Of a DNA stretch of 32,933 nucleotides, positions 3,479 to 14,047 are shown piece by piece. Below the pieces are notes generated by a model, which had not been told where the DNA came from, did not search any database, and saw only the letters and a program-made list of their open reading frames with translations. This DNA comes from Candidatus Hydrogenedentota bacterium (GTDB lineage Bacteria; Hydrogenedentota; Hydrogenedentia; Hydrogenedentales; GCA-2746185): contig CANKTP010000023.1 in the NCBI GenBank assembly GCA_947486375.1, positions 1 through 32,933 on the forward strand, written 5' to 3'. The position numbers and the translations under genes are program-made. Position 1 is the first letter of the stretch; each line of letters starts with the position of its first letter.

Positions 3479-5173
3479 CTAGACGAAATACGCCTTCTGG
3501 ATGTACTGCTGGACCATGCGGTGGGTGTTGAAGAAGGAGCCGTTGAGCGCGATGCAGTGCCGCATGAGCTCGATGTAGCGGTGGCGATGCGTCGAGACGA
3601 GCGGCAGGATGACGTGCTCGAGCTTGCCGTAGATTGACTGGGCATCGTTGAACCAGTCGGTGCGCTCGTCGCCGCTGCGCTGGGCCGCGCCGATGGACCA
3701 GCCCGTGACGCCCTCGATGTGTCCCTCGACCCACCATCCGTCGAGCACGCTGAGGCTGGGCACGCCGTTGACGGCGGCCTTCATCCCGCTGGTTCCCGAG
3801 GCCTCGAGCGGGCGCTGGGGGGTGTTCATCCACACGTCGCAACCGGACACGAGGGCCTTCGCGATGTCGACCTCGTAGTTCGGCACGTAGACGACCTTGA
3901 TTTCGTGCTTCAGCGTGTCTCGTGCGCGGAAGATGCGCTGGATGATCTCCTTGCCGTCGGTGTCGCCGGGGTGCGCCTTGCCTGCGTAGATGATTTGGAA
4001 TGGGCCCGCCGTCTCGGCGATGCTTCGCAAGCGGTCGGGATCGCTTAGGAGAAGGTCGCCGCGTTTGTAGGGGGCCATGCGGCGCGCGAAGCCGAGGGTG
4101 AGCGCCGTGGGATCGAGGTCCGCGCCCAGCTCGCGGTTTACCCGCTCGACAAGGGTGCGTTTCGCCTGCATGTGGGCGTCCCACACCTCGTCGCGCGGGA
4201 TGTTGAGGGCATAGCGCAGGCTGAACGCGTCCTGCCGCCAGCCGGGAATGTAGCGGTCGAACAGCGCCGCGAAGGGCGGGCACACCCAGGTCGGGGCATG
4301 GATCCCGTTCGTGATCGCGTCGATCGTGTAGTGCGGGAACATGACGCGGGACACTTCGCCGTGGCGCTTGGCGACACCATTGACATAGTGGCTGAGGTTT
4401 AGCGCGAGGTAGGTCATGTTCACCATCCCCTCGTGCATGAACAGGTCCTGCATCCCGAGGAGATCCGGGCCCATGCCCACCGCGCGCGACGCGACATCGA
4501 GGGCGAATTTGTCGTGGCCCGCGGCCACCGGCGTGTGCGTGGTGAATATGCACTTGGGCCGGACACTGTCGACGTCTTCGCGCGTGATGGAGTCGCGACC
4601 GGCCTCGCGGCGGCATTCGTCGAGCAACTCGAGGGTGAGAAACGCCGCGTGGCCCTCGTTCATGTGGAACTTGCGCAGGCCCGTGTGGCCCAGCGCGCGC
4701 AGCATGCGCACGCCGCCAATCCCGAGGACAACTTCCTGGCAAACGCGGTAGTAGAAGTCGCCGCCGTAGAGCTTGTCGGTGAGCGAGCGGTCCCACTCGG
4801 AGTTCCCGGGAAGGTCCGCATCGAGGAGGTACACGGGGACGACGTGGCCGTCGACGCCGCGGACGTCGTAACGCCATGCGCGAAGGGTGACGTGGCGACC
4901 GTCGACGTCGACGTTGACGCGCGGGCTTTCCTCCTTGAGGAAGGCCTCGACCGGCCACGAGACGGTCGATTCGGTCTGCCAGCCCGCCCCATCGAGGTGC
5001 TGGTTCATGTAGCCCTTGCGGTGGAGCAGGGTGACCCCGGCAAGCGGCGCCCCGAGATCCGCCGCCGAACGGATCGTGTCGCCCGCGAGCACCCCGAGGC
5101 CGCCGCTATACGTCGGCATGCGAGGATCGAGGGCCATTTCCATGGTGAAGTAAGCGATAAGTTCACGGCTCAT
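3479..5173 (-). CDS. glgP: Alpha-glucan (glycogen) phosphorylase, GT35 short form
   Basis: [55 protein letters not shown]...; C-terminal half contains [14 protein letters not shown] and [32 protein letters not shown]. Confidence 0.93.
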
Positions 5174-5285
5174 ATGCGGGGCGTCTCCCAATGTGATGAT
5201 CCTGTGTCGCCTGTATATCATGCGGGGGGTATCGTGTCCAAGGGCAAACGAAAGGGGCCATCCGCGAATAACCAAGACCCGCACC

Positions 5286-5890
5286 CGGATCCGCCCCATG
5301 GCAGCCCTTGCCCACGATCCGGATCGTGAAGGTGTCGGCACTGGCCATTGCCGCGCCGGGGTTGAACCCGACCGTCCCCACCTCGAGCGTCGGCCAGCAA
5401 TGCAGTCCGAACACCGCGTCCACGTCGTCCAACAGGCCTTCCTGGACGATGAACCGCCCGTCGGCCGCAACCTCCTCCACCGGCTGGAAAATGAACTTCA
5501 CCGTGCCCCGGAGCCGGTCGCGGTGCAGGTGCAAGAGTTTCGCCACGCCGCACAAGTTCGCGCTATGCCCGTCGTGCCCGCAAGCATGCATCCGCATCGG
5601 AATCTGCGAGCGGTACGCGACCCCCGTCTCCTCCTCGATCTCCACCGCGTCCATGTCAGCCCGCAACGCCACCGTCTTGCCCCCGGCACCCCGGACGGTC
5701 GCAACGATGCCCGTGCCCTTGGCGTGCCCCCGCGTGTATTCGATCCCCGCCTCGGTCGATATCGCGCTATGCGGTCGGAAGTCCACTTCTCCTCGAAACG
5801 AATCTCGGGGTGTTCGTGGAGTTCATGACGAAGGGAGATGATTTCGGGTAGCAGCCCTTGGATGGTCTGCTTGATTGTGTCGGTATTCAC
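5286..5890 (-). pseudogene. M20-family amidohydrolase remnant, frameshifted and C-terminally truncated
   Basis: N-terminal part (LLPEIISLRHELHEHPEIRFEEKWTSDRIARY) is in one frame. The continuation (TEAGIEYTRGHAKGTGIVATVRGAGGKTVALRADMDAVEIEEETG...MHACGHDGHSANLCGVAKLL...GKGCHGADP) is in another frame. Recognisable M20 sequence then stops near 5286, with no dimerisation or C-terminal domain. Confidence 0.85.
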
Positions 5891-6091
5891 GGCTCCACTC
5901 GTCTCATTTTCTGGTACCGGGCCTATACACTGGGGCGATGGCTAGCGTCGAATTGGAAGGAAGAGGGAGAAGGTTGATTCTTGACGATACCCGCCGGGAG
6001 TCCTACTATATACGTGAAGGAACCGATACGGATGCCTACTCGTTCAGGTGTCTGGTTGCCCCAAGAGAAAAATTCGGACCGGGGACATCAT

Positions 6092-6917
6092 ATGAAGCAT
6101 GACGCCACTATCTTCCTCTATGCCGTCGTGCTATGCCTACTTGTATTCCCGATGACCAACTGTTCATCGCCTGAGTCCCAAGGCGTAAAAGGTAAGCGCG
6201 AGCCCGAAGTAGATTTCATACTTCCGGGAGACGTGCTGCTCGAGATGGTTCGTATTCCGGCGGGCACGTTCATGATGGGCGCGATGAATGCCGAGCCGAA
6301 CGAGAAGCCGGTCCATCAGGTTACGCTGACCCGAGACTTCCAACTCGGGAAATACGAGATCACCAAGGCCCAATGGCAGGCGGTGCTGGGCACCAAGCCG
6401 TGGTCGGACCTGCCTTATGTCCTTGACGATCCCAATTCTCCCGTAGTGTACGTCACTCGGAACGACGCTCAAGTGTTCATCACCGCGTTGAACAAACTGA
6501 CAAATGGGACTTTCCGCCTACCCACCGAGGCCGAATGGGAATACGCCTGCCGTGCCGGGACAACGACTGAATTTTCCTTTGGCGAAGATGTGTCGTACTT
6601 GGGAGACTATGCTTGGTATATCATGAACGCATGGGAAGTCGGCCAACAGTATGCCCCCAAGGGTTGGACAGAAGCTGCCCAACCCTCGGGGGCTTTACGA
6701 CATACACGGTAATGCCTCGGAATTATGTAGCGACCGGTACGGTGCGTGCTCATCGAGTTCGGCTAACGATCCTACTGGACCAGCGAGCGGCTCGGAGTGG
6801 GTTTTTCGGGGCGGCTCGTTCGCCGGCGCCGATCCCTGCCACTCGGCCTTCCGCCTCAACAGCGGCGCAGGTAACTCCGTCGGGTTTCGGGTTGCGAGGA
6901 CACTTCCAGCCCACTAG
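6092..6917 (+). pseudogene. Formylglycine-generating/sulfatase-modifying-factor-type (SUMF1/FGE) lipoprotein, interrupted by a 1-nt frameshift
   Basis: MKHDATIFLYAVVLCLLVFPMTNC signal, then MVRIPAGTFMMGAMNAEPNEKPVHQVTLTRDFQLGKYEITKAQWQAVLG...FRLPTEAEWEYACRAGTTTEFSFG. It continues in another frame as VGQKLPNPRGLYDIHGNASELCSDRYG...DPTGPASGSEWVFRGGSF...VGFRVA. The shift is at the CCCCC tract 6654-6658. Confidence 0.8.
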
Positions 6918-7141
6918 TCATAGTCCTCTTGAGTCACTACTCCTTATATACTCATGCGCGATCATGGCATCGGAAGGAAGACAGCACACTCCGGCATGAC
7001 TCCTACGGAAGGCCCGATGTATAGAAACGAGGTTGGTTTATCAACTCTAAGCCACGGTCGCATTCGAGTGAAAATCTCGACGACCGCTCTCGTCGATTTG
7101 ACTGCCCCCATGCCACTTGTGGCAAAGTATGCGCGTTTCCT

Positions 7142-7247
7142 CCCCTGCCGGGACTGGCGATGCGACGTGGAACAGACCACGGGGAACCGGCGGGGCGATA
7201 CGAGTTGGCCGTTCGCCTGGGCACCCGGGGCGTGAAGTGTGCCCGGG
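7142..7247 (+). promoter_or_regulatory. ZTP (pfl-motif) riboswitch aptamer plus putative switching hairpin, upstream of gcvT
   Basis: CCCC-T-GCCGG pairs with CCGGC-GGGG (P1); GACTGGCG; hairpin CGTGG-AACAGA-CCACG (P2); CGAT; GGCCGTTCGCCTGGGCA. This matches the conserved pfl core (GACUGRCG, then a GUGGAA...CCAC hairpin, then CCGnCUGGGC). CCTGGGCAC (7216-7224) can alternatively pair with GTGCCCGGG (7239-7247). Confidence 0.88.
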
Positions 7248-7329
7248 GCGTGTCCATCGTGACGGACGGCCCCGCCACCCCCATCCCGGGAATGACTGCT
7301 CAAGATATCCATGTGTTTCCGGAGGCTGC

Positions 7330-8409
7330 ATGCAAAAGACGCCGTTGTACGACGAGCACCTCAAACTCGGGGGGAAGATTGTCGACTTCAATGGCTGGGC
7401 CTTGCCGCTCCAGTTCACGGGTATCGTGCATGAGCACCAACACACGCGCGCGCGGGCGTCTATCTTCGATTGTTCGCACATGGGCGAGTACCGCATCAAA
7501 GGTCAGTCGGCCATCGAGGCTTATGACCGGCAGGTCATTTCGGACACGTCGAAGATTCCCCTGGGGCGGTGCCGGTATGGGGCCATTCTCTCGGAGAACG
7601 GCGGCATCCTCGACGACTTGATCACCTTTCGGATGGCCGCCGATGAATTGTATGTCGTGACGAACGCCGGCCCCATCGCGAGCGTGACGGATCGGATTTG
7701 CGGCGGCAATCCGGGCGCGGAACATGTATCCTACGAGACCGCGAAGATCGACGTACAGGGACCGCTGGCCTATCGCATGGTAATGGCGGCGGGATTCAAA
7801 GACGTGGAAGGCCTCAAGTATTTCAATTCCCTATGGACGACATGGCGCGGCCATCGGGTATTGTTGTCGCGGACGGGTTACACCGGCGAGTTGGGCTACG
7901 AGTTGTTCATGGACAACGACCTTGCCCCCACGCTCTGGGAATTATTTTGTTCGATGGAAGATGCCGCCCCGGCGGGCCTCGGGGCGCGGGACACCTTGCG
8001 CACCGAGGTGTGCTACGGGTTGTCCGGTCAGGACTTCGACTCGACCGTGACGCCCCTTGAGTCGGGCATGGCGGCTTTCATCGAGTGGGAAACCGAGTTT
8101 GTCGGCAAGGAGGCGTTGATGGCCCAGCGCAATCGCGGCGACTATCGCGAATTGGTCGCGGTGAAGACGCTGGATCGCCGCGCGCCTAGACACGAGTTCA
8201 ACGTGACGCGCGACGGCGTTAGCGTGGGAGTCGTGACCAGCGGGACCTTCGGGCCGAGTCTCGATCACGGGGTCGGGTTGGCGCGGGTGGATCGCAATGT
8301 GAGCGCGCCGGGGACGCGGCTTACGGCGGGTCCAAAGGGATTGCCGATCGAAGTATGCAAGATTCCGATTTATACGAAGGGCACGTGCCGCGCCGCGGCG
8401 ACGGCTTGA
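7330..8409 (+). CDS. gcvT: Aminomethyltransferase (glycine cleavage T protein)
   Basis: MQKTPLYDEHLKLGGKIVDFNGWALPLQFTGIVHEHQHTRARASIFDCSHMGEYRIKG...LSRTGYTGELGYELF...; RBS GGAGG directly upstream of the ATG. Confidence 0.95.
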   Translation: MQKTPLYDEHLKLGGKIVDFNGWALPLQFTGIVHEHQHTRARASIFDCSHMGEYRIKGQSAIEAYDRQVISDTSKIPLGRCRYGAILSENGGILDDLITFRMAADELYVVTNAGPIASVTDRICGGNPGAEHVSYETAKIDVQGPLAYRMVMAAGFKDVEGLKYFNSLWTTWRGHRVLLSRTGYTGELGYELFMDNDLAPTLWELFCSMEDAAPAGLGARDTLRTEVCYGLSGQDFDSTVTPLESGMAAFIEWETEFVGKEALMAQRNRGDYRELVAVKTLDRRAPRHEFNVTRDGVSVGVVTSGTFGPSLDHGVGLARVDRNVSAPGTRLTAGPKGLPIEVCKIPIYTKGTCRAAATA

Positions 8410-8575: not shown

Positions 8576-8962
8576 ATGTTTCCAGATAATTTGAAGTATA
8601 CCGAGGACCACGAGTGGGTCCGCGAGGAGGGCGGCGCATGCACGGTGGGGATCACCGCGTTTGCCGCCGAACAGCTCGGGGACGTGACCTACGTCGAGTT
8701 GCCCGAGGTGGGGGCGGCGTTCAAGAAGGGCGATGAGGCCGCGACGGTCGAGTCGGTGAAGGCCGCGAGCGATGTCTATGCGCCTGTCGCCGGGCATGTG
8801 ATCGAGACGAACGCGGAACTCGAGGCGCGTCCGGAATTGGTCAATGAGAGTCCTTATGACAAGGGGTGGTTTTTCAAGCTGGACGATTTTGATCCCGCGC
8901 AATTGCGCGGACTCATGAATGCGGCCGCGTACGCGAAGTTCGTCGAGGAGCAGGGACATTGA
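8576..8962 (+). CDS. gcvH: Glycine cleavage system H protein
   Basis: MFPDNLKYTEDHEWVREEGG...VGITAFAAEQLGDVTYVELPEVG...ESVKAASDVYAPVAGHVIETN...; the lipoyl-lysine context ESVKAASD is present. Confidence 0.96.
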   Translation: MFPDNLKYTEDHEWVREEGGACTVGITAFAAEQLGDVTYVELPEVGAAFKKGDEAATVESVKAASDVYAPVAGHVIETNAELEARPELVNESPYDKGWFFKLDDFDPAQLRGLMNAAAYAKFVEEQGH

Positions 8963-10245
8963 GCTGGGTCCCGACGACAGAAACCGAACGGCGCGAGATG
9001 CTGGGCGTCATCGGCGTCCAGTCCATCGACGAATTGTTCGAGGCGATTCCGCCCAAGGTGCGGCTGAAATCGTGGAACGTGCCCGAGGGCGTGTCCGAGA
9101 TGGCCGTCCGCGATCTGTTGACGCGGATGGCTGCGAAGAACCCGTCGGACCTGACCGGGTTCCTTGGCGGCGGCTACTACGATCACTACATCCCGGCGGC
9201 GGTTGACGCGCTCGCGGGGCGGCAGGAGTTTTACACGGCCTACACGCCCTACCAGCCCGAGTGCGCGCAAGGGACCTTGCAGAGCATTTACGAATACCAA
9301 TCGGCGATATGCCGCCTGACGAACATGGATTTCGCGAACGCGTCGTTGTACGAGGGCGGCACGGCGATTTTCGAGGCGGCGACGATGTCGATGCGCATCA
9401 CGCGGCGGCGGCGGATCGTGTGCCACTCCTCGGTGAATCCCATCTATCGCGAGCAACTAAGGACGCACACGTCGAGCATGGACGTCGAGCTCGTTGACGG
9501 CGAAGACCCCGCCGGCGCGGCCTGCGTGATCGTGCAGAACCCCAGCTTCCTCGGGGCGCTGCGCGACTACACGGCGCTGGGCACGGCCTGCCACGAGGCG
9601 GGGGCGCTGCTCGTCGTCTCGTTCTACCCGATTTCCCTTGGCTTGGTGAAGACTCCCGGCGAGATGGGCGCGGACATCGCCATTGCCGAGGGACAGTCGC
9701 TGGGCATCCCGCTGAATTTCGGCGGACCCTACCTCGGGATCATGGCGACGCGCGCGTCGCACGTGCGCAAGATGCCGGGCCGCATCGCCGCAGCGACTCA
9801 GGACGCCCAAGGCCGACGCGGGTTCGTGCTGACGCTGCAGGCGCGCGAGCAGCACATCCGCCGCGCGAAGGCGATGTCCAACATTTGCAGCAACCAGGCC
9901 CTCTGTGCGTTGCGCGCGCTCATCTACCTCTGCCTGATGGGCAAGGAGGGCTTGCGCGACGTGGCCCGGCATTGCCACGCGAAATCCGAATACCTCAAGG
10001 GACTGCTGGGTGCGGGGAACATCTTGAACGACGGCCCGACCTTCAACGAATTCGCCGTCCGATTGAAACGTCCCGCGTCGGAAACCGTCGGCCTGATGGC
10101 CAAGCGCGGTTTCCTCGCGGGCTTGCCGCTGGCCTCCGTGGGCGCGGGTGGCCCGAACGATTTGCTTGTCGCGGTGACCGAACGCCGGACCCGCGCCGAA
10201 CTCGACGCCTTCGCGGCGGCACTGCGGGAGGTCGCATGGAACTAA
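8959..10245 (+). CDS. gcvPA: Glycine dehydrogenase (decarboxylating) subunit 1 (TTG start overlapping the gcvH stop)
   Basis: PTTETERREMLGVIGVQSIDELFEAIPPKVR...GGGYYDHYIPAAVDALAGRQEFYTAYTPYQPECAQGTLQSIYEYQSAICRLTNMDFANASLYEG, which is GcvPA. Confidence 0.95.
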   Translation: MSWVPTTETERREMLGVIGVQSIDELFEAIPPKVRLKSWNVPEGVSEMAVRDLLTRMAAKNPSDLTGFLGGGYYDHYIPAAVDALAGRQEFYTAYTPYQPECAQGTLQSIYEYQSAICRLTNMDFANASLYEGGTAIFEAATMSMRITRRRRIVCHSSVNPIYREQLRTHTSSMDVELVDGEDPAGAACVIVQNPSFLGALRDYTALGTACHEAGALLVVSFYPISLGLVKTPGEMGADIAIAEGQSLGIPLNFGGPYLGIMATRASHVRKMPGRIAAATQDAQGRRGFVLTLQAREQHIRRAKAMSNICSNQALCALRALIYLCLMGKEGLRDVARHCHAKSEYLKGLLGAGNILNDGPTFNEFAVRLKRPASETVGLMAKRGFLAGLPLASVGAGGPNDLLVAVTERRTRAELDAFAAALREVAWN

Positions 10246-11672
10246 TCTACGATCAGTCGCGCGAAGGACGCCGGGCGATCACGCTCGATGCGTTGGATGT
10301 GCCCGAGGCGGCGTTGCCGCGCGACTTGTTGCGGACCGAGGCCGCCGGATTGCCGGAGGTCAGCGAGTTGGACGTGGTGCGGCATTTCACGCGCCTGTCG
10401 CAACTTAATTTCGGGATCGATTCCCATTTCTATCCCCTTGGCTCCTGCACGATGAAATACAATCCAAAGATTGCCGAGGCGGTCGCCGCGTTGCCGGGCT
10501 TCGCGGAACTCCATCCGCACCTCTCGTCGGACGAGGCCCTGTGGGCGCATTGCCAGGGGGCCTTCGAGGTCGTGTACGAGGTCGAGGAACTCCTCGCCGA
10601 GATCGCGGGCATGAAGGCGGTTTGCCTGCAACCCATCGCGGGCGCGCACGGCGAACTCGCCGGTACGCTCCTCATGGCGGCCTACCATCGCGACAAAGGG
10701 CATACGCACAAGAAGAAAATAATCATCCCCGATTCCGCCCACGGCACCAATCCCGCGAGCGCCGCCATCGCGGGCTTCGACATCGTCGAGATTCCCTCGA
10801 CGCCCGATGGCGCGATCGATTTCGACGCCTACACGGCGGCGATGGACGACACGGTGGCGGGTGTCATGACGACGTGTCCGAACACCCACGGATTGTTCGA
10901 ACCGAGGATATTGGAGATTGCCGCCCTCGCGCACAAGCACGACGCCCTGCTCTATTACGATGGCGCCAACCTCAACGCCATCATGGGCGAGTGCCGTCCC
11001 GGCGACCTCGGATTCGACGTGATGCACTACAACGTCCACAAGACCTTCGCCACGCCGCACGGCATGGGCGGGCCGGGTTGCGGCCCGGTGGGGGTGAGCG
11101 AACGTCTCGTCCCGTATTTGCCGGGCCCGCGCGTGGCGCGGCGCGAGGGGCGATTCGTCCTCGAGACCCCGCCGCGATCGATCGGCCGCATGGCCCCGTT
11201 CTTCGGCAACTTCATGATGGCCGTGCGCGGCTACGCCTACATCCGTCACCTCGGCAACGAGGGCCTCAAGGACGTGTCGCGCGTGGCCGTGCTCAACGCG
11301 AACTATATCCACGCGCGGCTCAAGCACGCCTACACGCCGGCCTTCGCGGGTCGCTTCATGCACGAGTGCATATTCACGGCCGCGGCCCAGGCCCAAAAAG
11401 GCGCGCGCGCGCTGGATATCGCCAAGGCCCTGCTCGACGAGGGCTACCACGCGCCGACGGTGTACTTCCCGCTGACCGTGAAGGAAAGCATCATGATCGA
11501 GCCGACCGAGACCGAGTCGAAAGAGACCCTCGACGCCTTCTGCGACGCCATGCTCCGCATCGCCACGCGCATTGAGGAGGATCCGATGGCTTTCCGCAAT
11601 TCGCCAACGACCATGCCCGTCGGGCGCTTGGATGAGGTCAAGGCCGCGAGAGATCTAAATTGCGTGTGCTGA
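10236..11672 (+). CDS. gcvPB: Glycine dehydrogenase (decarboxylating) subunit 2
   Basis: ATG at 10236: MELIYDQSREGRRAITLDALDVPEAALPRDLLRTEAAGLPEVSELDVVRHFTRLSQLNFGIDSHFYPLGSCTMKYNPKI...; PLP-lysine context HYNVHKTFATPHGMGGPGCGPVGV. Confidence 0.95.
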   Translation: MELIYDQSREGRRAITLDALDVPEAALPRDLLRTEAAGLPEVSELDVVRHFTRLSQLNFGIDSHFYPLGSCTMKYNPKIAEAVAALPGFAELHPHLSSDEALWAHCQGAFEVVYEVEELLAEIAGMKAVCLQPIAGAHGELAGTLLMAAYHRDKGHTHKKKIIIPDSAHGTNPASAAIAGFDIVEIPSTPDGAIDFDAYTAAMDDTVAGVMTTCPNTHGLFEPRILEIAALAHKHDALLYYDGANLNAIMGECRPGDLGFDVMHYNVHKTFATPHGMGGPGCGPVGVSERLVPYLPGPRVARREGRFVLETPPRSIGRMAPFFGNFMMAVRGYAYIRHLGNEGLKDVSRVAVLNANYIHARLKHAYTPAFAGRFMHECIFTAAAQAQKGARALDIAKALLDEGYHAPTVYFPLTVKESIMIEPTETESKETLDAFCDAMLRIATRIEEDPMAFRNSPTTMPVGRLDEVKAARDLNCVC

Positions 11673-11675
11673 GCC

Positions 11676-12401
11676 ATGCGCCTGCTTGACCTCTCCTTCC
11701 CCGATCCCGAATCCAACCTCGCGCTCGATGAGGCCCTGCTCGACGAGGCCGAGGCCGGACGCGGCCACGAGACGCTGCGTATCTGGGAAAGCCCCGTTCG
11801 CTTCGTCGTGCTCGGCGTCAGCCAGAAGGCCGGCGACGAAGTGTATCGTGACGCCTGCATGCGAGACGGGGTCCCGATCCTCCGCCGCTGTTCCGCCGGC
11901 GGCTGCGTCCTCCAAGGACCCGGATGCCTCAACTTCAGCCTAGTCCTTGACCAGCAACACCGCCCCGAAATAAACACCGTCCGCGGCTCGTACTGCTACA
12001 TCTTCGACCGCCTCAAGGCCTCGTTCGCCGCTGCCGGAGTCGTCATGCTCCACCAAGGCATCTCCGACCTGGTCGTCGCCGGACGCAAGGTTTCCGGCAA
12101 CGCGCAACGACGAAAGAAGCGCTTCATCCTCCACCACGGGACCCTGTTATACGCGGCGGACATCGGCGCGATAGGCACCTACCTCAAGGAACCCAAGGAC
12201 CGACCGGACTATCGACAGGACAAGTCGCACGCGGAATTCGTCGGTAACATTGGAATATGCCGTGAGGAGTTGGTCGGTTGTCTGCTTCAGGCGTTCCCGG
12301 GAACAACTTCGGATCTCGCCCCTTCCGACGACGAGGCGGTTCTCACCCAATCCCTCGCACAAACAAAATACGCCGACCCTGCGTGGACACTTAGACGATA
12401 G
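11676..12401 (+). CDS. Lipoate-protein ligase / BPL_LplA_LipB-family protein
   Basis: NLALDEALLDEAEAGRGHETLRIWESPVRFVVLGVSQ...ILRRCSAGGCVLQGPGCLNFSLVL...DLVVAGRKVSGNAQRRKKRFILHHGTLL. Last gene of the gcv operon. Confidence 0.88.
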   Translation: MRLLDLSFPDPESNLALDEALLDEAEAGRGHETLRIWESPVRFVVLGVSQKAGDEVYRDACMRDGVPILRRCSAGGCVLQGPGCLNFSLVLDQQHRPEINTVRGSYCYIFDRLKASFAAAGVVMLHQGISDLVVAGRKVSGNAQRRKKRFILHHGTLLYAADIGAIGTYLKEPKDRPDYRQDKSHAEFVGNIGICREELVGCLLQAFPGTTSDLAPSDDEAVLTQSLAQTKYADPAWTLRR

Positions 12402-13401: not shown

Positions 13402-13677
13402 TCAACTCACGGTGAGGCGGACGCGCTTGCCCAAGGCGGCGGCATATTTCTCCAGCGTGGCCAAACCGATGTTCTCCCCATGATTCTCTATTCGGGATAT
13501 GGCGGATTTTTGGGTGTGCATTCGGGTGGCCAGTTGTTCCTGGGTCAGTCCCGCCTGCTCGCGGGCCTGGCGCAGCAGCACGCCTATCTTGAACTGTTCG
13601 TAGCCCGTTTCAAATCCGTCCGCGAACGATTCGTCGCGACGTTTCCGCGCCCCGACGTATCGTTTCAGATCGCTCAT
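13402..13677 (-). CDS. higA: XRE-family HTH antitoxin (HigA-like)
   Basis: MSDLKRYVGARKRRDESFADGFETGYEQFKIGVLLRQAREQAGLTQEQLATRMHTQKSAISRIENHGENIGLATLEKYAAALGKRVRLTVS; HTH motif AGLTQEQLATRMHTQKSAISRIE. Confidence 0.9.
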   Translation of the reverse strand: MSDLKRYVGARKRRDESFADGFETGYEQFKIGVLLRQAREQAGLTQEQLATRMHTQKSAISRIENHGENIGLATLEKYAAALGKRVRLTVS

Positions 13678-14021
13678 TCTTGTGTCCCTAGGTATTCGGT
13701 TTTCCTCTGTTCCGCAAGCCGGATGTCCGCCTGCGGCGTCTTCTGGGTCTTCTTGCGAAACGCATGATTCAGGATGACGTAGCGCGCGCCATTCAAGAAG
13801 CCCAGGAGGCGAATGACATCGCCGCCGCTTTCCGCGCGGATCTCCCAGATACCGTCCGTGTTCACCAGTTTTTTGAAGTATTGTGCCGGAACCCGGTCGA
13901 TTTCCTCGACCAGTCTCATCACCCACGTCACCTTCTGTGCTTGTTGATGCGTGAGTGAGTCCAGGAACGTCTCGACCGGACAAGCGCCAGACTTGGTGCG
14001 GTAAAAGACAATTTCTCTCAC
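13674..14021 (-). CDS. higB: RelE/HigB-type toxin (phage Gp49-like family), GTG start
   Basis: REIVFYRTKSGACPVETFLDSLTHQQAQKVTWVMRLVEEIDRVPAQYFKKLVNTDGIWEIRAESGGDVIRLLGFLNGARYVILNHAFRKKTQKTPQADIRLAEQRKTEYL. The 3' end overlaps the antitoxin start by 4 nt. Confidence 0.9.
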   Translation of the reverse strand: MREIVFYRTKSGACPVETFLDSLTHQQAQKVTWVMRLVEEIDRVPAQYFKKLVNTDGIWEIRAESGGDVIRLLGFLNGARYVILNHAFRKKTQKTPQADIRLAEQRKTEYLGTQE

Positions 14022-14029
14022 GGCGGCAT

Positions 14030-14047
14030 GTTAACATATACGTTAAC
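14030..14047. promoter_or_regulatory. Inverted repeat GTTAAC-ATATAC-GTTAAC upstream of higBA; putative autoregulatory operator
   Basis: Symmetric GTTAAC half-sites spaced by 6 nt, 8 nt upstream of the toxin start codon on the minus strand. Confidence 0.55.

Follow-up and report, generated by a model that had tools for sequence, protein, structure and literature searches.

A ZMP/ZTP riboswitch aptamer before the glycine cleavage operon of Candidatus Hydrogenedentota and its proposed role in one-carbon supply

Riboswitches that respond to ZMP (5-aminoimidazole-4-carboxamide ribonucleotide, AICAR) and its triphosphate ZTP form the pfl class (Rfam RF01750), whose known switch acts in the ON direction (PMC7337938; PMC2864571). 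In the Thermosinus example the ligand-stabilised pseudoknot stops helix P3 from pairing into a terminator (PMC7337938). ZTP control of glyA in Cupriavidus metallidurans has been shown with a reporter, the authors suggesting that glycine cleavage then supplies one-carbon (C1) units (PMC10882993), and tandem ZTP/glycine riboswitches are found in Bacillus and Oceanobacillus (PMC9481103). Here we describe an aptamer of this class in front of the glycine cleavage (gcv) operon on a contig of 32,933 nucleotides from a Candidatus Hydrogenedentota bacterium (CANKTP010000023.1, assembly GCA_947486375.1), the whole of which is called the window below.

With the studied ZMP/ZTP riboswitches the window shares a full P1/P2/P3/pseudoknot-core aptamer scoring above the curated threshold and a one-carbon target downstream; it differs from them in having the gcv operon as target and, likely, a translational platform where they have terminators. 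ZTP control of tetrahydrofolate (THF) loading with C1 from serine or glycine is common to it and to C. metallidurans, but there the target is glyA and here the glycine cleavage operon itself. The Bacillus and Oceanobacillus tandems also tie ZTP to glycine metabolism, although they do so through two aptamers that together act as an A AND NOT B gate for a gene of serine synthesis, whereas a single ZTP aptamer lies before gcv in the window. The glycine (gcvT) riboswitch, RF00504, likewise stands before gcvT-gcvH-gcvP, yet it is a different aptamer and its signal is glycine excess; here the signal would be C1 shortage. Because no paper with gcv as a ZTP target was found in the literature searched, which did not include the paper that first validated the class (Kim et al. 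2015), we treat this locus as belonging to a known riboswitch class, its target being conserved and possibly not reported before.

Our reading, to which we assign a probability of about 0.8, is that a shortage of 10-formyl-THF switches the glycine cleavage operon on by way of a ZMP/ZTP riboswitch. We infer ligand binding and the ON direction for the gcv leader, and likewise the translational mechanism and the physiology.

When the window was searched with cmscan against 4227 Rfam families, the sole match exceeding its gathering score was to RF01750 at 7140-7229 of the + strand [58.8 bits, gathering score 39, E=2.8e-7, model positions 1-86 of 86]. Besides this copy the whole genome contains no second RF01750 match. 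A preliminary description had placed a ZTP (pfl) riboswitch at 7142-7224 and suggested this covariance-model check; the match is significant, and both the position and the elements it listed were correct. The parts of the aptamer are as follows.

7140..7229, + strand: ZMP/ZTP riboswitch aptamer (RF01750), full length; covariance-model score, and P1 covariation among 51 homologues
7144..7194, + strand: P1, strands 7144-7151 and 7187-7194 (CCUGCCGG/CCGGCGGG), enclosing J1/2 and P2; covariance model and alignment
7156..7159, + strand: 5' pseudoknot strand GGCG, expected partner CGCC at 7214-7217; sequence, invariant in the alignment, pseudoknot known from the class (PMC7337938)
7208..7222, + strand: P3 (GCC/GGC, 7208-7210/7220-7222) and loop GUUCGCCUG; covariance model and alignment, with CGCCU complementary to AGGC(G) of gcvT ribosome-binding sites

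Together with the P2 hairpin (GUGG/CCAC, 7167-7170/7177-7180), P1 and P3 show standard pairs at all consensus positions. The conserved elements GACUGGCG, and GCCGUUCGCCUGGGC with P3 and the pseudoknot loop, are present, giving P1-P2 and P3 with the GACUGGCG and GCCGnnCGCCUGGGC cores that the class requires; the pseudoknot was judged by sequence complementarity only. In an alignment of 51 homologous aptamers located before gcv, the core segments CTGGCG, GTGG, GCCG and GCCTGGG are invariant, and seven pairs of the P1 region display two-sided compensatory changes. Since the core of the gcv copies does not vary among the 51, it is under selection, and on these comparisons the aptamer of the window is more than a chance resemblance.

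The phylum was sampled with 68 Candidatus Hydrogenedentota genomes, 62 of which possess ZTP aptamers above the cut-off. A search of the DNA downstream of each match with the window's Gcv proteins located the aptamer directly before gcvT in 56 genomes belonging to 36 genera, at a spacing of 31-136 nt (median 73; 100 nt from aptamer end to gcvT start in the window). Wherever the contig extends, gcvT is followed by gcvH-gcvPA-gcvPB, and often by an LplA-family gene too. Genomes G020 and G061, in which the ZTP aptamer lies at a contig edge, are probably of the same pre-gcvT type; gcvT was assembled without a ZTP aptamer in four others (G057, G060, G042 and the divergent G021). The survey of pfl matches upstream of gcvT in relatives, also proposed in the preliminary description, shows the gene context to be kept across the phylum.

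Of the remaining ZTP aptamers in the phylum, almost all lie before a gene for a stand-alone AICAR formyltransferase, and they carry the same core as the gcv copies. At L010, L011, L020, L052 and other loci this enzyme consists of the PurH C-terminal domain only. The gcv aptamer 5' of the one-carbon genes gcvT-gcvH-gcvPA-gcvPB, and its sister copies 5' of AICAR formyltransferase, fit the purine and one-carbon context of the class. AICAR formyltransferase uses ZMP and 10-formyl-THF; that the other ZTP target consumes both compounds therefore supports the assignment of ZMP/ZTP as ligand. In the genome of the window no aptamer lies in the 218 nt available upstream of the AICAR-formyltransferase gene (G000:C156), so that gcv is the only ZTP target detected there (assembly 88.7% complete).

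It had been supposed that the operon answers to ZTP rather than to the more familiar glycine riboswitch, and the survey supports this: no RF00504 match above the cut-off was found in the 68 genomes, that of the window included, the sole exception being a sub-threshold match of 30.8 bits in G028. A glycine riboswitch before gcv was ruled out on these grounds.

Control would operate as follows. When AICAR formyltransferase is short of 10-formyl-THF, ZMP and ZTP would rise, and the ligand would stabilise the P3 pseudoknot, holding the CGCCUGGG strand inside the aptamer and leaving the ribosome-binding region of gcvT free. With no ligand, the CGCCUGGG strand or other aptamer sequence would pair with the Shine-Dalgarno (SD)/start region and gcvT would be translated less. 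More of the glycine cleavage system (GCS) would convert glycine to 5,10-methylene-THF, which FolD would then turn into 10-formyl-THF. Two features of the leader matter for this scheme.

7230..7329, + strand: leader from aptamer to gcvT, the presumed expression platform, with GC-rich hairpins; sequence and folding
7321..7326, + strand: SD region of gcvT, GGAGGC; sequence, and AGGC enrichment before gcvT

The + strand of the window leader is devoid of a U-tract intrinsic terminator, and such a terminator was rejected as its platform; a run of at least five T occurs in only 8 of the 56 Hydrogenedentota gcvT leaders. The SD of gcvT frequently reads GGAGGC(G), which complements the CGCCU found without variation in the P3 loop (strand CGCCUGG). 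AGGCG is found in 17/56 gcvT SD regions versus 1/136 for their operon partners gcvH, gcvPA, gcvPB and lplA (p=1.6e-9), and AGGC in 30/56 versus 10/136 (p=9e-12); none of 19 AICAR-formyltransferase genes has AGGC in this region. Counted by genus, AGGC appears before gcvT in 19 of the 36, and for any other single gene of the operon in 0-3. Long matches between SD and aptamer are seen at L031 (CGGTCGCCT, 9 nt), L066 (ATCGCCTG), and L059 and L041 (GTTCGCCT), and pairing of a ribosome-binding region with the aptamer of its own leader is better than with aptamers taken from other genera (Wilcoxon p=0.003; median p=0.005 in a permutation at genus level).

Several observations weigh against masking of the SD. 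The gene counts for AGGC(G) ignore relatedness, though the enrichment holds at the genus level, and the first duplex comparison, against the ribosome-binding sites of gcvH, gcvPA, gcvPB and lplA, was confounded, since gcvPB reached scores as high as those of gcvT. Forcing the aptamer lifts the computed accessibility of the SD only from 0.36 to 0.43, marginally more than with shuffled linkers (p=0.058). In the window itself the SD/aptamer match is AGGC/GCCU, four bases only; the predicted change in accessibility varies with the amount of coding sequence included; and nested folding, which does not count pseudoknot and ligand energies, prefers an aptamer-free structure by ~20 kcal/mol. Folding calculations only weakly back masking of the ribosome-binding site, least for the window's leader. 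The sequence comparisons nevertheless make translational masking the mechanism with most support in the phylum, less certainly so for the window.

Alternatively the same riboswitch and target might be retained with the window leader controlling transcription, by Rho-dependent termination or by attenuation through the GC-rich hairpins at 7217-7276. Characterised ZTP switches work by termination (PMC7337938), terminators overlap CCUGGG in several ZTP-gcvT leaders of Omnitrophota, and the shortness of the SD/aptamer match in the window is in keeping with this proposal. It is the strongest competitor and yet an unlikely one, as the leader lacks a U-tract terminator, T runs are scarce in the leaders of the phylum, and the enrichment of AGGC(G) at the gcvT SD would be left unexplained.

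The Omnitrophota candidates came to light when a covariance model of the Hydrogenedentota aptamers was run over 80 gcvT loci, mostly from other phyla. Weak candidates lay directly before gcvT in two Omnitrophota (L113 and L089); among the gcvT loci scanned the other phyla gave no match, with a model biased to its Hydrogenedentota source. At E<=0.1, candidates were present in 20 of 286 Omnitrophota genomes. Thirteen of 21 (L163 counted) precede gcvT, most of them under the Rfam gathering score, and five precede a gene that, judging from its sequence, probably specifies pyruvate formate-lyase. These five (L166, L168, L169, L171 and L172) are ZTP aptamers above or near the cut-off with CCUGGG-based hairpins, the pyruvate formate-lyase-like gene behind them being the classic pfl context. 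Three others (L181, L182 and L184), located before or within unrelated genes, for example one for a sugar-transporter-like protein, were judged to be false positives.

On folding, a CCUGGG-based hairpin followed by a T run, that is, an intrinsic terminator, was revealed at L162, L163, L167, L176, L179 and L180, while other members of the gcvT group have none; a simple terminator scan had missed these hairpins because their loops lie beyond its limit. Five of the terminator-bearing RNAs directly before gcvT (L162 in G068, L163 in G069, L176, L179 and L180) are divergent and ZTP-like, scoring 23-32 bits against the gathering score of 39. The divergent Omnitrophota subgroup has a CUUCUGGC core, an AUGGAAU..ACCAU core and an AU-rich P3. 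We lean slightly towards the view that the ZTP alarmone governs glycine cleavage in two or more candidate phyla, Hydrogenedentota and Omnitrophota among them, and that in the former it apparently takes the place of glycine riboswitches. Their platforms would differ (SD masking versus intrinsic terminators in part of the Omnitrophota), and the sub-threshold Omnitrophota aptamers with the CUUCUGGC core and AU-rich P3 could be a distinct subclass.

As to physiology, the genome of the window has FolD and serine hydroxymethyltransferase (glyA), and no match to formate-THF ligase (fhs) was found in this 88.7% complete assembly. Across the phylum sample Fhs (PF01268) was found in 22 of the 68 genomes and not in 46, and it was not found in any of the six genomes of the window's family. 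Lacking Fhs, the cell must derive its 10-formyl-THF from 5,10-methylene-THF via FolD, and this in turn is supplied by GlyA and glycine cleavage, which makes C1 rescue the simplest interpretation. The preliminary description had offered glycine breakdown as a C1-rescue response, and this idea fits both the presence of folD and glyA without a match to fhs and the fact that related genomes have AICAR formyltransferase as a further ZTP target. We consider that the Hydrogenedentota probably run glycine breakdown as an emergency one-carbon supply rather than for glycine disposal. A suspected association of fhs with gcvT lacking a ZTP aptamer was not established (Fhs in 3 of the 4 genomes of this kind versus 17 of the 56 with the aptamer, p=0.10).

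The GCS is reversible, and a ZTP-controlled system might instead run backwards, making glycine and serine from C1 units (the reductive glycine pathway), ZTP then reporting a different imbalance. Fhs, which formate entry requires, does occur in those 22 genomes of the phylum, but it is unmatched in the window's genome and the other five of its family; moreover, ZTP signals a lack of 10-formyl-THF, whereas reverse flux would use up C1 units. We regard this as improbable. More improbable still is a real aptamer that no longer binds ZMP or responds to some other ligand: ligand changes are known from certain riboswitch classes, but here the RF01750 core is matched, is invariant over the 51 gcv copies and recurs in the aptamers before AICAR formyltransferase.

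The genes of the operon, with gcv names assigned by NCBIfam curated cut-offs, are these.

7330..8409, + strand: gcvT, aminomethyltransferase; TIGR00528, 285 bits (cut-off 236)
8576..8962, + strand: gcvH, lipoyl carrier protein; TIGR00527, 158 bits (cut-off 116)
8959..10245, + strand: gcvPA, glycine dehydrogenase subunit 1; NF001696, 557 bits (cut-off 364)
10236..11672, + strand: gcvPB, glycine dehydrogenase subunit 2; NF003346, 690 bits (cut-off 441)
11676..12401, + strand: LplA-family lipoate ligase/transferase; PF21948 (LplA-B catalytic domain), 124 bits; TIGR00545, 110.6 bits (under the cut-off of 280)

The fifth gene is called LplA-family only, because in spite of its PF21948 domain it scores below the NCBIfam lipoate-ligase equivalog cut-off. 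The operon had been described as complete: gcvT-gcvH-gcvPA-gcvPB are borne out, and the word is slightly generous in that no dihydrolipoyl dehydrogenase (L-protein) gene lies within the operon.

Among the neighbours, an M20 peptidase/amidohydrolase gene (5163-5890, - strand) seems to be truncated, with its sequence divided between two frames, and extends into an alpha-glucan phosphorylase ORF at 3479-5470. An FGE-sulfatase-domain protein (5981-6999, + strand) ends early (profile positions 4-138 of 255), its sequence continuing in another frame near 6613, and might represent a decaying gene. Downstream of the gcv operon, at 13402-14037 of the - strand, a Gp49/HigB-like protein (PF05973, 13674-14021) and, after it, a helix-turn-helix protein of the XRE type are likely a toxin-antitoxin pair.

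If ZTP control of gcv is true, glycine cleavage would have a second regulatory logic, in which an alarmone calls for one-carbon rescue in place of glycine disposal driven by the substrate. The arrangement persists across the greater part of a phylum whose genomes often yield no Fhs match, and it offers a concrete, testable prediction on how uncultured bacteria feed purine synthesis.
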